From: Methylobacter sp.
GTDB taxonomy: Bacteria; Pseudomonadota; Gammaproteobacteria; Methylococcales; Methylomonadaceae
DNA: 64,000 nt
NCBI RefSeq assembly: GCF_004322395.1
Contig: NZ_SCTW01000050.1
Coordinates: forward strand, 1 to 64,000
Reading direction: 5' to 3'
This document shows positions 8,710 through 16,182 of the stretch, piece by piece. Positions within the stretch are counted from its first letter, which is position 1; each line of letters starts with the position of its first letter. The notes beneath the pieces are model-generated. The model ran no database searches and had not been told where the DNA came from. It saw only the letters and a program-made list of their open reading frames with translations. A program made the position numbers and the translations under genes.

Positions 8710-9417
8710 TTAAGGGATACGTAAATGTTGGCCCGGAGATATGCGATCCGGGTTGCTTAAAATATCCCGATTCGCATCAAAAATACGCGGCCATTGATTG
8801 GCATCGCTGTAGAACTGTTTGGCAATTTTAGAAAGCGTATCGCCACTAGATACGGTGTAGGTTCGAACGGATGTGGTGGCCGATCCCATTCCTGGCTCAG
8901 CAACAGCGGCGCTTGCGCTTGTTGTTTGTTGTTCAGATGTGGACGATTGCTCCTCATCTTCTTTGTTGCCGAAATAAGACGCTGCCGCTTTCCCTACAAC
9001 CGCAGCTCCCGCTGCACCCAGAAGCACTTTGCCCAATGTTGCAAGATTGCTTGATTCGGGTACCTTTCCTTCCGGTGTCAGTTTGTCGACCATGGCGGGT
9101 AAAACTTTTGAGAGTACCGATGCTCCCTGAGACTCCGGGATGCCTGCCTGTTGAGCAAGATCAGCAATCTGCTCTTTGCCCAGTACATTGGTCAGTTGGT
9201 CGGGCTGGATGCTTTTGTTTTCTCCAGTTCCAACCCATGACGAGGCTACATCACTCATTCCCGATTGTTGAAATTTTTTAACCAACCCGTCTACGCCACC
9301 CATTTTCTCTAGCATTCCCAACGCGCCGTTCAATAAATTTTGGGTTTTGTTTTCAGCTTGTTCTGAAGAATCATTTGCACCGATGGCGGATTTAACAATA
9401 TCTGTAAAAAAGCTCAT
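8710..9417 (-). CDS. YidB-like (DUF937) protein with C-terminal LysM domain
   Basis: [48 protein letters not shown]; Lys[35 protein letters not shown]. Confidence 0.85.
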
Positions 9418-9510
9418 AAGGTTTCTCCTCGTGAAATTCGTACAAAATAACTCGCATCAGCATGGTTCCGGTTTTAAGTAGCAATTAATGCGGTTCTCGA
9501 ATTTAGCTGT

Positions 9511-9885
9511 TTAGTCCAACAATTCTTGCGGGATATTGCCGCCGTTCTGTGCGAGTTTTTGCAATACGGTTTTATGCAGCCATATATTCATTTGGGATGA
9601 GTCGCCCATTGCTTGCGCGGGACAACCCAATTCTGCCGCAAGTTCTTTACGTGCGGCTAAACTGCTGTCAAGCCCCAATAATTTTAACAAGTCGACAATC
9701 GAAACTTTCCAGTTAAGCTTTTCTGCATGGGAAGCGGCTAATCCTTCCAATTTGCTGACGACATCGACCTCAGCAATTCCAGCAGCGGTGGCGGAAGCAG
9801 TTGCCGGTTGGGCTGTGTCAGGTGCTTTCGCAGCGGCGGCACTACGAATGCCCAGTTTTTCAAGAATGGAATTAAACAGACTCAT
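9511..9885 (-). CDS. DUF3597-like protein
   Basis: MSLFNSILEKLG...VDVVSKLEGLAASHAEKLNWKVSIVDLLKLLGLDSSLAARKELAAELG; internal ATG chosen. Confidence 0.75.
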   Translation of the reverse strand: MSLFNSILEKLGIRSAAAAKAPDTAQPATASATAAGIAEVDVVSKLEGLAASHAEKLNWKVSIVDLLKLLGLDSSLAARKELAAELGCPAQAMGDSSQMNIWLHKTVLQKLAQNGGNIPQELLD

Positions 9886-10564
9886 GGCGGATCCTCTAAA
9901 AAAGTATTGTTGAGTGATGGTCATGTTGATGCTTGGTGAAATTTGACCATTTAGAACAAGCTGTACAGGAATCGTCTGACCAGTGTTATTTAGTACAGAA
10001 CGCCAATAAATATTGAGCTTCTTAGCCCTTATTCGTGGTCAATTTTTTGACCGGCGTTAACAGGTACGGCTCGGAATGATGCTCCGGATACTGTTTTTGG
10101 CCGTAAAAAACTAATACTTTGACCAAGTCAATAATTGCTAATTTATCGCCCAAACCATGGATTAACGATAGATATATCGAACTAAATACACAATATGTAA
10201 GAATGCCTATATGAACTAACTTGGAGTATCGCCTTACGTTAGGGTCTAGATATTGCAATAACGCATTCTGCCAAACATTGTGCGGTTTAAATTCAAGGGA
10301 AATGCAGCAATTCTCATATGGAGAATTATTTCGAAGTAGTCGTTCCATCCAGCGCTGTCGGAGTAGAGAACAAGAACGGTGATCGGTTACCCTATGAGTC
10401 GTGTACTAATTATTATTGAGGTAGTTAGACCCATCAAGTTGATGGGTCAGTCTCGAGCGTAACTTTACAAGCCCATGTGTTATTATAAGTTTTGGTCTAT
10501 AAATAGAAGCTTTAATTAATTTCGTATTTTTAGCGTTTCATCGAGTGAACAGGAAACAGAAAGA

Positions 10565-12352
10565 ATGTGGCATAGTTTAATGGAGTTGCTTGCTTCCGCG
10601 GTTAAGAGGCGTACTGTTTCAAACATTACTGTGAGCCGGGAGATTCAGGAAGAATCACAACACCAACTCAATCGGCAGTTGGAACAACGCATAGCCGAGC
10701 GTACCGAACGCTTGCATATGATGATAGAAGCTTCCAAAGAAGCGGTGGTAACCATTAATCAAAATGGATACGTCGAAGAGTGGAACGCTATGGCTGAGCA
10801 TATGTTCGGGTGGTCGCGCCGCGAAGCCATCGGCCAGCGCTTGTCAGACATGATTATTCCCCACAAGTACCGGGAAGCGCATGAAATCGGCATAAAGCGC
10901 TTTCTGGCAACGGAGCAATGCACAGTGCTGAATCAGACGCTGGAGCTTTCGGCGCTTAAGCGGTCCGGCGAAGAGTTTCCTATAGAGCTTTCGGTCTGGC
11001 CTGTGCGTTGTGCCGAAGGCTACATTTTCAGCGCATTCCTGCGCGACATTACAGAACGGAAACAAGCCCTGCGAGTTGCCAAAGAGCAAGTTGAGCGAAC
11101 GCTGCTTTTTCGCACAGTCTTGTACGACTTGTCACGCATGGTCAAAACCGATTTCAACGATTCTATCCTGAATATTTTAAAGTCCACATCCGAGACACTA
11201 GGCGTGGCGCGTATGGTTTTCAGCCGATTTTCCCACTGTCACTCGACGCTACAGACCGAAATGATATACCGCTCGGCTTCCGACGATACCGCGCCCGAAT
11301 CGGAGTGCGGCGACTTCAGTGTCGATCTGTATCCGCAATATTTTTCCGTTATCATTTCCAACCGTCCGGTGGTGGTCGACGATGTCCAATCCGATCCTGC
11401 GACAGCGGAACTTGTGGACAATTATTTGATTCCATTAGGTATCACCTCCATGTTGGACGTGCCGGTGTGGTTGGACGGACGAGTGGTAGCGGTTATTTGT
11501 CACGAACACGTCGGACCTTCGCGAAGCTGGACTACAGAGGAAGTTGACTTCGCATTTTGCATCAGCAATTTGGTGGCGCTTGCTCTGGAAGCGGCTAATC
11601 GCATGCAGACTGAGGAAGAACTGCGTCAAGCCGAAGCCGATGTCCGGAAAGCTTTGGTTCGCGAACAGGAATTGAATGAATTAAAATCCCGTTTCGTGTC
11701 TATGGCTTCCCATGAATTCCGCACCCCTTTAACCGCCATTTTGTCTTCCGCAGAACTTCTTGAGGCTTACAGCGAACGATTGAGCTTAGAGAAGAAAGCG
11801 GATCTAATCGGTATGATCAAAACGGCTGTTAAGAGCATGACTCATATGCTGGAAGAGGTATTGTTTATCGGCAAGTCGGATACAGGGCATTTACAATTCA
11901 ACCCGACCTCCATTGAGGTCGACAGCTTTTGTGAGCATCTCTTGAAAGAAATCCGCGTCGGAGTAGGCAAAGATCACATCATCGAATACCGCGCCATCGG
12001 CCACTGTATATCGTCCATGATCGATCCTCACCTGTTGCGTCAAATCCTACTGAATCTATTGAGCAACGGCATAAAATTTTCACCGAAAGGTTCAACGATA
12101 AATTTTACCTGCAATTGCGATAGTGGGGGCATTGTCTTCGAGATTGCCGATCAAGGGGTCGGCATCCCGATGGAGGATAGGGCTAATCTATTCAGTACTT
12201 TTCACCGCGCCGGCAACGTTAGTAATATACAGGGCACTGGGCTTGGGCTTGCGATTGTCAAAAAATGCGTCGATCTTCATGGCGGCGAAATCGACTACAC
12301 CAGCGAAGTTGGAAAGGGCACACGTTTCCTGGTGCGAATACCATTTTTATAA
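10565..12352 (+). CDS. Cytoplasmic PAS-GAF sensor histidine kinase
   Basis: PAS TINQNGYVEEWNAMAEHMFGWSRREAIGQ; H-box FVSMASHEFRTPLTAILSSAE; G-box GTGLGLAIVKKCVDLHGG; no TM segment seen. Confidence 0.9.
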   Translation: MWHSLMELLASAVKRRTVSNITVSREIQEESQHQLNRQLEQRIAERTERLHMMIEASKEAVVTINQNGYVEEWNAMAEHMFGWSRREAIGQRLSDMIIPHKYREAHEIGIKRFLATEQCTVLNQTLELSALKRSGEEFPIELSVWPVRCAEGYIFSAFLRDITERKQALRVAKEQVERTLLFRTVLYDLSRMVKTDFNDSILNILKSTSETLGVARMVFSRFSHCHSTLQTEMIYRSASDDTAPESECGDFSVDLYPQYFSVIISNRPVVVDDVQSDPATAELVDNYLIPLGITSMLDVPVWLDGRVVAVICHEHVGPSRSWTTEEVDFAFCISNLVALALEAANRMQTEEELRQAEADVRKALVREQELNELKSRFVSMASHEFRTPLTAILSSAELLEAYSERLSLEKKADLIGMIKTAVKSMTHMLEEVLFIGKSDTGHLQFNPTSIEVDSFCEHLLKEIRVGVGKDHIIEYRAIGHCISSMIDPHLLRQILLNLLSNGIKFSPKGSTINFTCNCDSGGIVFEIADQGVGIPMEDRANLFSTFHRAGNVSNIQGTGLGLAIVKKCVDLHGGEIDYTSEVGKGTRFLVRIPFL

Positions 12353-12372
12353 TTTTATATAGATAATTTTCG

Positions 12373-12762
12373 ATGGCGAAAATCCTTGTAGTTGAAAACG
12401 ATTTGGCACTGCGTATATTGGTTACTCAATTGCTGGAATTAGAAGGGTATACCGTGGTTGCGGCGGAGAATGGCGCCGTCGCTCTGGAGTTTGTCGAAAA
12501 CGAACCTCCGGATCTGGTGCTTTGCGATCTGCTGATGCCGGAAGTTGATGGTTACCAGGTTTTGCATCGATTGATGCAAAACCCGTTGACTGCGTCAATC
12601 CCGTTGATTTTTTTGACTGCCAGCGCATTGCCCAGCGATCGCGAATACTGTTTAGAAAACGGCGCCAAAGGGTTTATGACTAAACCCTTCCATCACCTTG
12701 AACTCTTGGATTTGATCAGCAACCTCCTACCTGAGCCCAATGTAAGCGTCCCTAACCTATGA
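12373..12762 (+). CDS. Single-domain response regulator
   Basis: KILVVENDLALRILVTQLLE...PDLVLCDLLMPEVDGYQVL...FLTASA...MTKPF. Confidence 0.9.
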   Translation: MAKILVVENDLALRILVTQLLELEGYTVVAAENGAVALEFVENEPPDLVLCDLLMPEVDGYQVLHRLMQNPLTASIPLIFLTASALPSDREYCLENGAKGFMTKPFHHLELLDLISNLLPEPNVSVPNL

Positions 12763-14099
12763 AATCTCAAATTCTTGCAGTAGACGATGACCCCGCCCTG
12801 CTCAAACTTCTATCCATGCGGCTGGATCTGGAAGGTTATGCCGTGACCGAAGCTTCCAGCGGGGAAGAGGCTTTGGCGAAAATGGCCGGCTACAGCCCGC
12901 ATCTGGTTATCACCGACGTAAGCATGGGCGGAATGGATGGCTTGGCGCTGTTCGACATTCTGAAAAAATCCCATCCGGCGTTGCCCGTTATTATTCTGAC
13001 TGCTCATGCTTCGATTTCCCATGCAGTGGATGCTATGCGTCAGGGCGTGTTCGGTTATTTGACTAAACCGTTCGAGGCCGAAGCGCTGCTGGCGGAAGTG
13101 AAACGAGCTCTGGGGCAAAGTGGGGGCTCGTCCGCGAATGAATTCGACTGGAAGACTGCAATAGTTACTCGCAATACGCAGATGGAAGCGGTGCTCAACG
13201 AGGCCCGTATGATCGCAGTTCAAGATGCCAGTGTGCTGATAACCGGCGCATCGGGAACCGGCAAAGAGCTCATGGCCCAGGCGATCCACCGTATCAGCCC
13301 GCGCTCCGATGAGCCCTTCACAGCCATCAATTGCGGCGCAATTCCCGAGAACCTACTGGAATCGGAACTGTTTGGCCACGTCAAAGGGGCTTTTACCGGT
13401 GCGGCAAAAGACCACAAAGGCTTGTTTGTAGCGACCCAAGGCGGCACGTTGTTCCTGGATGAAATCGGTGACATGCCGCTACCCCTGCAAGTGAAGCTGC
13501 TGCGTGTCCTTCAGGAGAAGGCAGTACGTCCGGTCGGCGCTTTGCACATTACATCCATCGACGTTCGCATCGTGTCAGCTACCCACCGCGATCTGGAAAA
13601 GGAGATCGCCGAAGGCCGCTTCCGGGAAGACCTGTACTACCGTCTGAACGTGGTGAATCTCTGCCTGCCCGGCCTGAACGAACGATCCGACGACATTCCC
13701 CTGTTGGCTAAGCACTTTCTGTTTCAGCTGGCGGAAAAATACGGCAAAAACATCAATGGATTCGCGCCTGACGCGATGGAAATTCTGCTGACTGCATCCT
13801 GGCCGGGCAACATCAGGCAGCTGCTGAATGTCGTCGAGAAAGTCGTGGCCCTGTCAACCACGGAAATCATAACGGCCAGCCTGATACAGCGCGCCCTGCA
13901 ACGGCAGACCGACGATTCGGTTTCGCTGGACGAGGCAAAGAAGGACTTTGAGCGAGACTATCTGATACGCCTGATGAAAATGACTCAAGGGAATGTCGCC
14001 CACGCGGCCAAGATTGCCAAAAGGAACCGTAGCGAATTTTATACGCTGCTGCGCCGCCATAATCTGGAACCGGGACAGTTTAAAGACGATTCCGATTAA
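12759..14099 (+). CDS. Sigma54-dependent response regulator (NtrC family)
   Basis: Receiver VDDDPALLKLL...TKPF; AAA+ GASGTGKELMAQAIH; GAFTGA motif HVKGAFTGAAKDHKG; C-terminal HTH; 4-nt overlap with upstream gene. Confidence 0.93.
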   Translation: MKSQILAVDDDPALLKLLSMRLDLEGYAVTEASSGEEALAKMAGYSPHLVITDVSMGGMDGLALFDILKKSHPALPVIILTAHASISHAVDAMRQGVFGYLTKPFEAEALLAEVKRALGQSGGSSANEFDWKTAIVTRNTQMEAVLNEARMIAVQDASVLITGASGTGKELMAQAIHRISPRSDEPFTAINCGAIPENLLESELFGHVKGAFTGAAKDHKGLFVATQGGTLFLDEIGDMPLPLQVKLLRVLQEKAVRPVGALHITSIDVRIVSATHRDLEKEIAEGRFREDLYYRLNVVNLCLPGLNERSDDIPLLAKHFLFQLAEKYGKNINGFAPDAMEILLTASWPGNIRQLLNVVEKVVALSTTEIITASLIQRALQRQTDDSVSLDEAKKDFERDYLIRLMKMTQGNVAHAAKIAKRNRSEFYTLLRRHNLEPGQFKDDSD

Positions 14100-14330: not shown

Positions 14331-14369
14331 CTGTTGGGCTATCCCAACAGATGGCGCTGTTGGGATAGC
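14331..14369. promoter_or_regulatory. Inverted-repeat cluster upstream of UbiA/terpene cyclase genes (candidate activator site or hairpin)
   Basis: CTGTTGGG-CTAT-CCCAACAG overlapping GCTATCCCAACAG-ATGGCG-CTGTTGGGATAGC (13-bp perfect arms). Confidence 0.55.
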
Positions 14370-14414: not shown

Positions 14415-14431
14415 TTGGCACGATTCATTCA
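14415..14431 (+). promoter_or_regulatory. Candidate sigma54 promoter (partial match)
   Basis: TTGGCACG-ATTC-ATTCA versus YTGGCACG-N4-TTGCW: -24 box perfect, -12 box weak (lacks GC). Confidence 0.4.
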
Positions 14432-14529
14432 TTATATTTCTTCGAACAGGGCCGGCAATACGCCGGATTAATTAAAAAAACAGCCCTTGTACCGGTATCC
14501 CGGCATACATGAATCGAAGAGGAATCCTT

Positions 14530-15495
14530 ATGCTAAAGCCTACGCTTACACTCAATCCGAATGAGTTTTTTGCGCTTTCATTCTCACCCTTAGCGCCACT
14601 TCAGCGCAGGTTGGCCGACGCCCTTCAGCATGGCTCCAGTCTGGGCCTTTTTTTACCCGCTGCCGCCGCAAGCACTGTTTCGGCTGTTTCTCTTGCGATC
14701 AGCGGCGGAATTTCTTTGTCCTTGGCGCTGGCGACGTTTCTGCTGGTATATTCCAGCTACCTGATTGATCATCTGGCGGATGTGGGGCGTTTCGACGGTG
14801 AGCTGGATTCTGACCGCGGCCGATCCATGGCTCGCCACCAGCGCATCTTCGCTGTGTGCGGCGTGACTGCGTTCCTAGGCGCATTGGGAATCACTGCGCT
14901 GGAAGCAAATTTAGCCTCGGTATTGTTGCTGTTAGCGTTTCCGCTGTCGGTGGTGCTCTACGGAACCGAATGGTTCGGCAGGTTCACGTTTGGACTTCTG
15001 AGATACCGCCGCTTGAAGGATATTCCCGGTATCAAGGCGTTCTATACTGCTTTTTTCTGGGGGCTTTTGATGGTTTACGCCGACTGTTTTCTTGGCGGTG
15101 GCGGATTGCCGGTTCTCGTATTCTTCTTCGGCTATATGCTAATGAGCGATTTTGTGAACACAGTGTTTTGTGATTTCAAGGATCTACATCGGGATCGTGC
15201 CGACGGCGTGGCTACGCTGCCGCTTCTGCTGGGCGTGCCGCAAACCTTTCAGTTACTGCGCCTCGCCAATCATTTCTCTGTGTTGTGGCTGTGCGGATTT
15301 GTAGCGGCCGGCTGGGTTCCAGTCGGGCTACTAGGGCTGGCCCTGATCCATCCTTATGTGTCGGCCGTTCTCGGCCATGGTGAACGAGGTCTGGCAAAAG
15401 GAAAACTACCCGGCGATGCCGTTATGGACGCGGAATTCCTGCTGTGGCTGCCCTGTGCGCTATTGGGATTCTGGCTGTTTTCGACGCTAGCTTGA
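14530..15495 (+). CDS. UbiA-family prenyltransferase
   Basis: First acidic region YLIDHLADVGRFDGELDSDRG; second motif FCDFKDLHRDRADGVATLPLLLG; about nine TM segments. Start 14509 or 14530. Confidence 0.85.
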   Translation: MLKPTLTLNPNEFFALSFSPLAPLQRRLADALQHGSSLGLFLPAAAASTVSAVSLAISGGISLSLALATFLLVYSSYLIDHLADVGRFDGELDSDRGRSMARHQRIFAVCGVTAFLGALGITALEANLASVLLLLAFPLSVVLYGTEWFGRFTFGLLRYRRLKDIPGIKAFYTAFFWGLLMVYADCFLGGGGLPVLVFFFGYMLMSDFVNTVFCDFKDLHRDRADGVATLPLLLGVPQTFQLLRLANHFSVLWLCGFVAAGWVPVGLLGLALIHPYVSAVLGHGERGLAKGKLPGDAVMDAEFLLWLPCALLGFWLFSTLA

Positions 15496-15531
15496 AATGA
15501 AACATGCAATTCTGAAATGGAAAATATAATC

Positions 15532-16182
15532 ATGACACCGACACAACAATTTATATTCAATCTGTCCGCCTCGTCCTCCGCAATTCTCTGGCTGGTCTGC
15601 TATGCGCTGATTATCCGCCGCGGGTTTAAGGATCGCACTTACGGCATGCCGTTGGCGCCGCTCTGTGTTAACATGTCGTATGAATTCATCTTCGGGATAC
15701 TTCATCCCGATGATCCACCAATGAACTATGCGAATATCGCCTGGATTCTGGTTGATCTAGTCATCGTCTACCAATACTTGCGCTTTGCTCCCAAAGAGTT
15801 TCCTGCTCAATTACCCCGGCAGTGGTTTTATCCGGCTTCCGTCCTGGCTTTAATTACCGCCTTTGCCGGTGTGTTGTCCATCACTTACGAGTTTCAGGAT
15901 TGGCATGGCAACTATACCGGATGGGGGGATCAACTGCTGATTTCCATCACTTTTTCTTGTTTGCTGTTACGCAGGCAAAGCGTTCGAGGCCAGTCGTTGT
16001 ATATCGTTCTGTCGCGAATGTTAGGCTCAATCGTACTTATACCCGGACAGTACATCCAGACTCCCCATTCCTTTTTTATCGCTTATGTGTGGGTTGCCTT
16101 CGTTGTGTTTGACAGCCTCTACATCATGCTTTACCTGCGTCAATGCCGGGTGGAGAACATTAATCCCTGGACGCGGTTTTGA
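15532..16182 (+). CDS. Transmembrane terpene cyclase, PaxB/Pyr4/DmtA1-like
   Basis: RRGFKDRTYGMPLAPLCVNMSYEFIFGILHP and FVVFDSLYIMLYLRQCRVENI match the conserved pattern of this seven-TM cyclase family; Glu and Asp in the expected motifs. ATG at 15532 preferred over 15517. Confidence 0.78.
   Translation: MTPTQQFIFNLSASSSAILWLVCYALIIRRGFKDRTYGMPLAPLCVNMSYEFIFGILHPDDPPMNYANIAWILVDLVIVYQYLRFAPKEFPAQLPRQWFYPASVLALITAFAGVLSITYEFQDWHGNYTGWGDQLLISITFSCLLLRRQSVRGQSLYIVLSRMLGSIVLIPGQYIQTPHSFFIAYVWVAFVVFDSLYIMLYLRQCRVENINPWTRF

Follow-up and report, generated by a model that had tools for sequence, protein, structure and literature searches.

The 64,000-nucleotide stretch of DNA analysed here (the window; contig 18 of a host genome of 4.59 Mb in 157 contigs) encodes, by profile match, a Pyr4-family transmembrane terpene cyclase directly downstream of a putative, divergent UbiA-family gene. 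The two genes were strictly coupled at every locus where the pair was found in the order Methylococcales, without any other recognised conserved neighbour, and the pair very probably acts by joining an isoprenoid chain to a small molecule, after which the chain is closed into rings. The original prediction had read the two genes as a prenyltransferase and a cyclase forming a minimal meroterpenoid pathway; its observation was confirmed and its interpretation supported. Both reading frames were found where it had placed them, and the motifs it had quoted (GFKDRTYGMPLAPLCVNMSYEF, FVVFDSLYIMLYLRQ and DFKDLHRDRADG) were all present verbatim. The features of the locus were as follows.

14332..14349, no strand assigned: perfect inverted repeat TGTTGGG-CTAT-CCCAACA (TGTTGGGCTATCCCAACA) in the gap separating the pair from the NtrC-type regulator; a further TGTTGGGATAGC lies close to it
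14530..15495, + strand: UbiA-family membrane prenyltransferase-like protein (321 aa; alternative start at 14509, a second in-frame ATG)
15532..16182, + strand: Pyr4-like transmembrane terpene cyclase (216 aa; alternative start at 15517, another possible ATG)

The cyclase start at 15532 was favoured because homologues begin with MTP, MSP or MNP. The two frames were separated by 36 bases on the same strand, and the pair was otherwise alone between an NtrC-type regulator ending at 14099 (5′ side) and a convergent DUF6691/sulphur-transport gene pair on the opposite strand from 16460 (3′ side). GC content of both genes (0.49–0.55) was similar to that of neighbouring genes, so that base composition showed no mark of recent transfer.

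Directly upstream and on the same strand, positions 10565–14099 encode a PAS/GAF histidine kinase, a single receiver protein and the NtrC-type sigma-54 activator, for which 22 further genomes from this genus gave no close match (E ≤ 1e-100). As the upstream gene is of NtrC type, a sigma-54 promoter was considered at 14415 (TTGGCACGATTCATTCA) and rejected, since its -12 element lacked the GC and such sites were not above chance in the window. The inverted repeat was the sole exact match in the window, and three matches were obtained at ≤3 mismatches against 0.17 expected, with a search pattern derived from the site itself. It was also listed as terminator-like on the - strand, and is a possible operator or part of a terminator.

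Terpene cyclase family and catalytic residues

The product of 15532–16182 matched Pfam PF25129 (Pyr4-TMTC) with E = 4e-36 and 125.2 bits (cut-off 27) across profile positions 14–222 of 227, and no match to this profile was obtained in 14 control genomes. Assignment of the second frame to the PaxB/Pyr4/DmtA1 type of cyclase was confirmed at the level of the sequence profile. No relative was found in the Protein Data Bank by sequence or profile; a low-confidence structural model (mean pLDDT 46, built from a two-sequence alignment) consisted of seven long helices and one short C-terminal helix.

Mutagenesis of DmtA1 from Streptomyces identified E60, W29, W59 and Y33 as essential, and changes at D214, N56 and Y217 had a strong effect on activity (PMC6173783). 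Residues W20, Y24, N47, Y50, E51, D194 and Y197 of the window cyclase corresponded to DmtA1 W29, Y33, N56, W59, E60, D214 and Y217, with the same spacing within residue blocks (4, 23, 3, 1; and 3), the mapping being based on published positions and spacing. The expectation that the essential acidic residues lie in motifs equivalent to those of DmtA1/Pyr4 was borne out, as E51 and D194 stood at the exact local DmtA1 spacing. D75, E120 and D133 are candidate counterparts of the acidic D94/E133 of DmtA1. W20, Y24, E51, D194 and Y197 were unchanged in 10 of 10 bacterial family members.

The position of DmtA1 W59 was occupied by tyrosine (Y50 in the window cyclase) in all five methanotroph copies, that of the window included, and by tryptophan in the other five of the ten aligned bacterial sequences. 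This was treated as a conservative aromatic change beside the catalytic glutamate, clade-specific and not family-defining, and was not counted against family membership because the profile match and the catalytic pair hold. The same tyrosine would fit an inactive locus, in which the cyclase-like protein is a seven-helix membrane protein of other function or a decaying gene, as would a split UbiA gene in one of the two copies of the pair in genome G133 (L019:8368–9401, contig 52), where two overlapping frames meet at a short homopolymer stretch through either a frameshift or an assembly error. Such loss of function is very improbable: the catalytic Glu, Asp and Tyr were kept at 61–73% cyclase identity between methanotroph hosts of different families and genera, and frames were whole in all five cyclases and in the other four of five UbiA copies.

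In the phylogenetic tree the five methanotroph cyclases formed one clade (support 100/100). Nearest outside it were Nostoc plasmid proteins and the cyclase of G873 (35–42%), then Streptomyces proteins (25–35%); for the window cyclase, the nearest named outside relatives found were the Nostoc proteins (39–41%). G873 gave the one further clear match in the class-level genome sample, the phylum-level sample held none besides the window's own genome, and no relative was found among the viral contigs searched. The G873 gene (L021:8958–9605, contig 65) lies in another gammaproteobacterium, on an 11-kb contig that also carries IS66 and DDE-type transposases and on which no UbiA gene was found. On plasmid p057_N of Nostoc sp. 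C057 (L014:11965–13785, a 19-kb linear record), a Pyr4-like cyclase annotated as hypothetical adjoins an isopentenyl phosphate kinase gene (NCBIfam, 183 bits), with no UbiA gene annotated.

Changes fixed in the methanotroph clade, near the catalytic glutamate and elsewhere, include Y50 for tryptophan and GWGDQL for an AFGQNL-type sequence; a different substrate or product is therefore plausible, and the product of these cyclases may be new. The window cyclase was closest to one G133 copy (68%, host of another family) and was 62% identical to that of G976, of its own family, with low branch support within the clade. Together with the patchy distribution, these relationships suggest transfer or loss.

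Coupling to a UbiA-family gene

The cyclase was present in 4 of 311 Methylococcales genomes (the window's genome, G133 with two copies, G143 and G976), and no match was obtained in other genomes of the window's genus. An independent profile search for the UbiA type gave strong matches of comparable score in the same four genomes, beside every cyclase, and the remaining matches in the 311 genomes were fragments (E ≥ 7.7e-5). At all five pair loci the genes were adjacent, on the same strand and with the UbiA gene first, so that the arrangement predicted at the window, with a UbiA gene directly upstream, was kept throughout the neighbourhood survey in methanotrophs. The G143 locus has the same sequence as a locus recorded under Methylotetracoccus oryzae; this host belongs to the Methylococcales, as does the window host, but to another family.

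The flanks differed from locus to locus: an ABC transporter and sensor kinase; glycyl-tRNA synthetase and glyoxalase; the NtrC-type regulator; an IS110-like transposase; and two long secreted-looking proteins with a LuxR-type regulator, the flanking frames of the last two loci being classed by eye instead of by profile scan. Given unrelated surroundings and strict adjacency at five loci, the pair itself is therefore the conserved unit. Among the annotated or read genes close to the five loci, none was recognised as an epoxidase, PKS, P450 or acceptor gene, in line with the earlier statement that no PKS, epoxidase or aromatic-acceptor gene is adjacent. The acceptor-forming and epoxidase genes of a complete meroterpenoid cluster were not found among these genes at any of the five.

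The window UbiA-like protein scored 31.3 bits against PF01040, under the Pfam cut-off of 34.2; its orthologues in G133 and G976 scored 46.6 and 29.3 bits. The second motif (D215xxD218xxxD222) was invariant in the four complete orthologues, as was the first (S76xxxD80xxxD84), in which the Asn of the usual NxxxDxxxD is replaced by Ser in all four and both Asp are kept. Of the earlier reading, a UbiA enzyme with an intact second motif, the motif stood, but the first motif is degenerate and the family score falls below cut-off. We regard the product of 14530–15495 as a divergent UbiA-family protein, and prenyl transfer by it as the probable activity. In searches of the Protein Data Bank by sequence or profile no relatives were found, and a plasmid search gave none either. 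With a low-confidence structural model (mean pLDDT 57.5), the leading Foldseek matches were DGGGP synthase, UBIAD1 and archaeal UbiA. None of them reached E ≤ 0.001, and close behind these UbiA-fold enzymes came prenyl synthases, whose all-helical fold is similar.

The Asn-to-Ser change, invariant in the four complete copies, would suit a purely terpenoid function, in which no aromatic acceptor takes part: either the UbiA-like protein works as a UbiA-type terpene synthase or as a diphosphate lyase, or a free or lipid polyprene (squalene-like) is the substrate of the cyclase. Fungal Pyr4-family enzymes with SHC/OSC-like partners yield onoceroid triterpenoids (PMC11109268), and squalene-hopene/oxidosqualene-type cyclases in the host genomes make squalene-type substrates plausible. 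We consider this unlikely: the DxxDxxxD motif and both first-motif Asp are intact, the Pyr4-like cyclases of the cited literature use prenylated acceptors except in onoceroid and gromomycin-type triterpenoids, and no SHC/OSC gene was recognised beside the five loci. Genome G000 carries on contig 48 (~8763–11683) a large squalene/oxidosqualene-cyclase-like gene beside an FAD monooxygenase-like gene, possibly a sterol cyclase and squalene epoxidase.

No NCBIfam equivalog was reached above cut-off by the UbiA-like protein. Its best matches, far below threshold, were geranylgeranylglycerol-phosphate, DHNA and chlorophyll prenyltransferases, and not the 4-hydroxybenzoate type. These leanings are compatible with a membrane lipid or quinone function, where the UbiA-like protein would put a prenyl chain onto a quinone precursor or onto glycerol phosphate and the cyclase would cyclise that chain, giving an unusual lipid and not a secreted metabolite; the lack of any exporter, regulator or tailoring gene kept alongside the pair points the same way. 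Presence in so few Methylococcales genomes (4 of 311) is ill-suited to a core membrane component, and a separate, proper 4-hydroxybenzoate octaprenyltransferase is encoded elsewhere in the host genome, which leaves this function quite improbable.

Precursor supply and proposed pathway

Two polyprenyl synthases each were found in the window genome and in G976, whereas G133 and G143 have three, the third being of unassigned type. Of the two in the window genome, one scored above the FPP-synthase cut-offs and the other above that of octaprenyl-diphosphate synthase, and neither reached a GGPP-synthase cut-off; farnesyl diphosphate (FPP) is therefore the likeliest prenyl donor. Chorismate lyase, which supplies 4-hydroxybenzoate, is present in the host genome, so that 4-hydroxybenzoate would be one available acceptor.

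On balance we favour a minimal two-enzyme membrane pathway in which an acceptor from general metabolism is prenylated and the product then cyclised. The UbiA-family protein would load the acceptor with a short isoprenyl chain, for which farnesyl donated by FPP is the likeliest choice. E51 of the cyclase, with its seven predicted helices, would then protonate the double bond at the far end of the chain, assisted by Y24, N47 and D194, and the chain would close to a cyclised product, probably bicyclic if farnesyl. Because no epoxidase is adjacent, cyclisation would most likely start by alkene protonation, the epoxide-free route put forward for DmtA1 (PMC6173783). The UbiA activity, the chain length, the order of steps and the use of an alkene instead of an epoxide are thus predicted features, as are all steps beyond the family assignment, and the label "meroterpenoid pathway" is to be read as provisional.

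A UbiA-like prenyltransferase is joined to a Pyr4-like cyclase in the zigralone pathway (PMC13307353), and fungal UbiA and Pyr4 clusters without a PKS are known (PMC11109268). Several points weigh against the two-enzyme pathway: the UbiA-like protein has the Asn-to-Ser change, a score below the Pfam cut-off and no NCBIfam equivalog; the essential W59 of DmtA1 is Tyr in every methanotroph copy; and the pair comprises fewer genes than characterised bacterial pathways. Those pathways hold extra genes for acceptor synthesis, P450s and a polyprenyl synthase. A more specific proposal, that the methanotroph copies constitute a subfamily of their own, which needs two dedicated enzymes, a primary-metabolism acceptor and no epoxidation to make a new meroterpenoid or membrane lipid with a cyclised farnesyl (or geranylgeranyl) chain, and which spread sporadically among methanotrophs as a two-gene unit, is held tentatively, at somewhat less than an even chance.

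Relation to known systems

Pathways of prenylation followed by cyclisation are best known from fungi and actinobacteria. No meroterpenoid pathway in methane oxidisers was found in a limited literature search. A survey published in 2026 listed 1,107 Pyr4-like candidates from bacteria, reduced to 264 by nearby terpenoid genes and mostly from Actinomycetota (PMC13307353), and the description of bacterial relatives as few did not hold. Bacterial Pyr4-like cyclases and their pairing with UbiA-like proteins are already known, and the present pair stands out by its unusual host and minimal form. The pathway had been called unexpected here, which is apt for the organism that carries it and for how few genes it comprises, and not for the enzyme class (PMC13307353). 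Bioactive meroterpenoids are among the products of Pyr4-like cyclases, whose roles in bacteria have been described as largely unexplored (PMC13307353). Two genes without an epoxidase or acceptor gene are about the smallest possible test system; a product would reveal the role of Pyr4-like cyclases in methane oxidisers and would tell if prenyl transfer survives the altered first motif of the UbiA protein.

DmtA1, the drimentine membrane terpene cyclase of Streptomyces youssoufiensis (PMC6173783), belongs to the same family by published description. The window cyclase shares with it six residues at identical local spacing, and the lack of an epoxidase beside the window gene is consistent with alkene protonation. 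The two differ at W59 (Y50 here), as compared by published residues, and in the partner enzyme, which is the phytoene-synthase-like DmtC1 there and a UbiA protein at the window locus, where a cyclodipeptide synthase is also lacking. TylF of the tolypodiol pathway (cyanobacterium HT-58-2) is likewise a bacterial Pyr4-like cyclase, likened here by description (PMC13307353); tolypodiol is a diterpenoid with a proposed origin from 4-hydroxybenzoate and geranylgeranyl diphosphate (PMC8073705), whereas no GGPP synthase was recognised in the window genome. The cyanobacterial cyclase copies found in Nostoc had no annotated UbiA gene alongside.

In the zigralone cluster of Micromonospora zingiberis, a UbiA-like protein (ZigC) and a Pyr4-like cyclase (ZigF) act in one pathway (PMC13307353), as proposed here, but that cluster has its own polyprenyl synthase, a TPP enzyme, five P450s and methyltransferases, against two genes at the window locus. 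Fungal Pyr4 and PaxB share the PF25129 family with the window cyclase; their clusters are larger, and typical fungal pathways include an FAD epoxidase. The closest minimal logic is that of the fungal UbiA and Pyr4 clusters without a PKS (PMC11109268), in which a UbiA enzyme and then a cyclase act on a non-polyketide acceptor.
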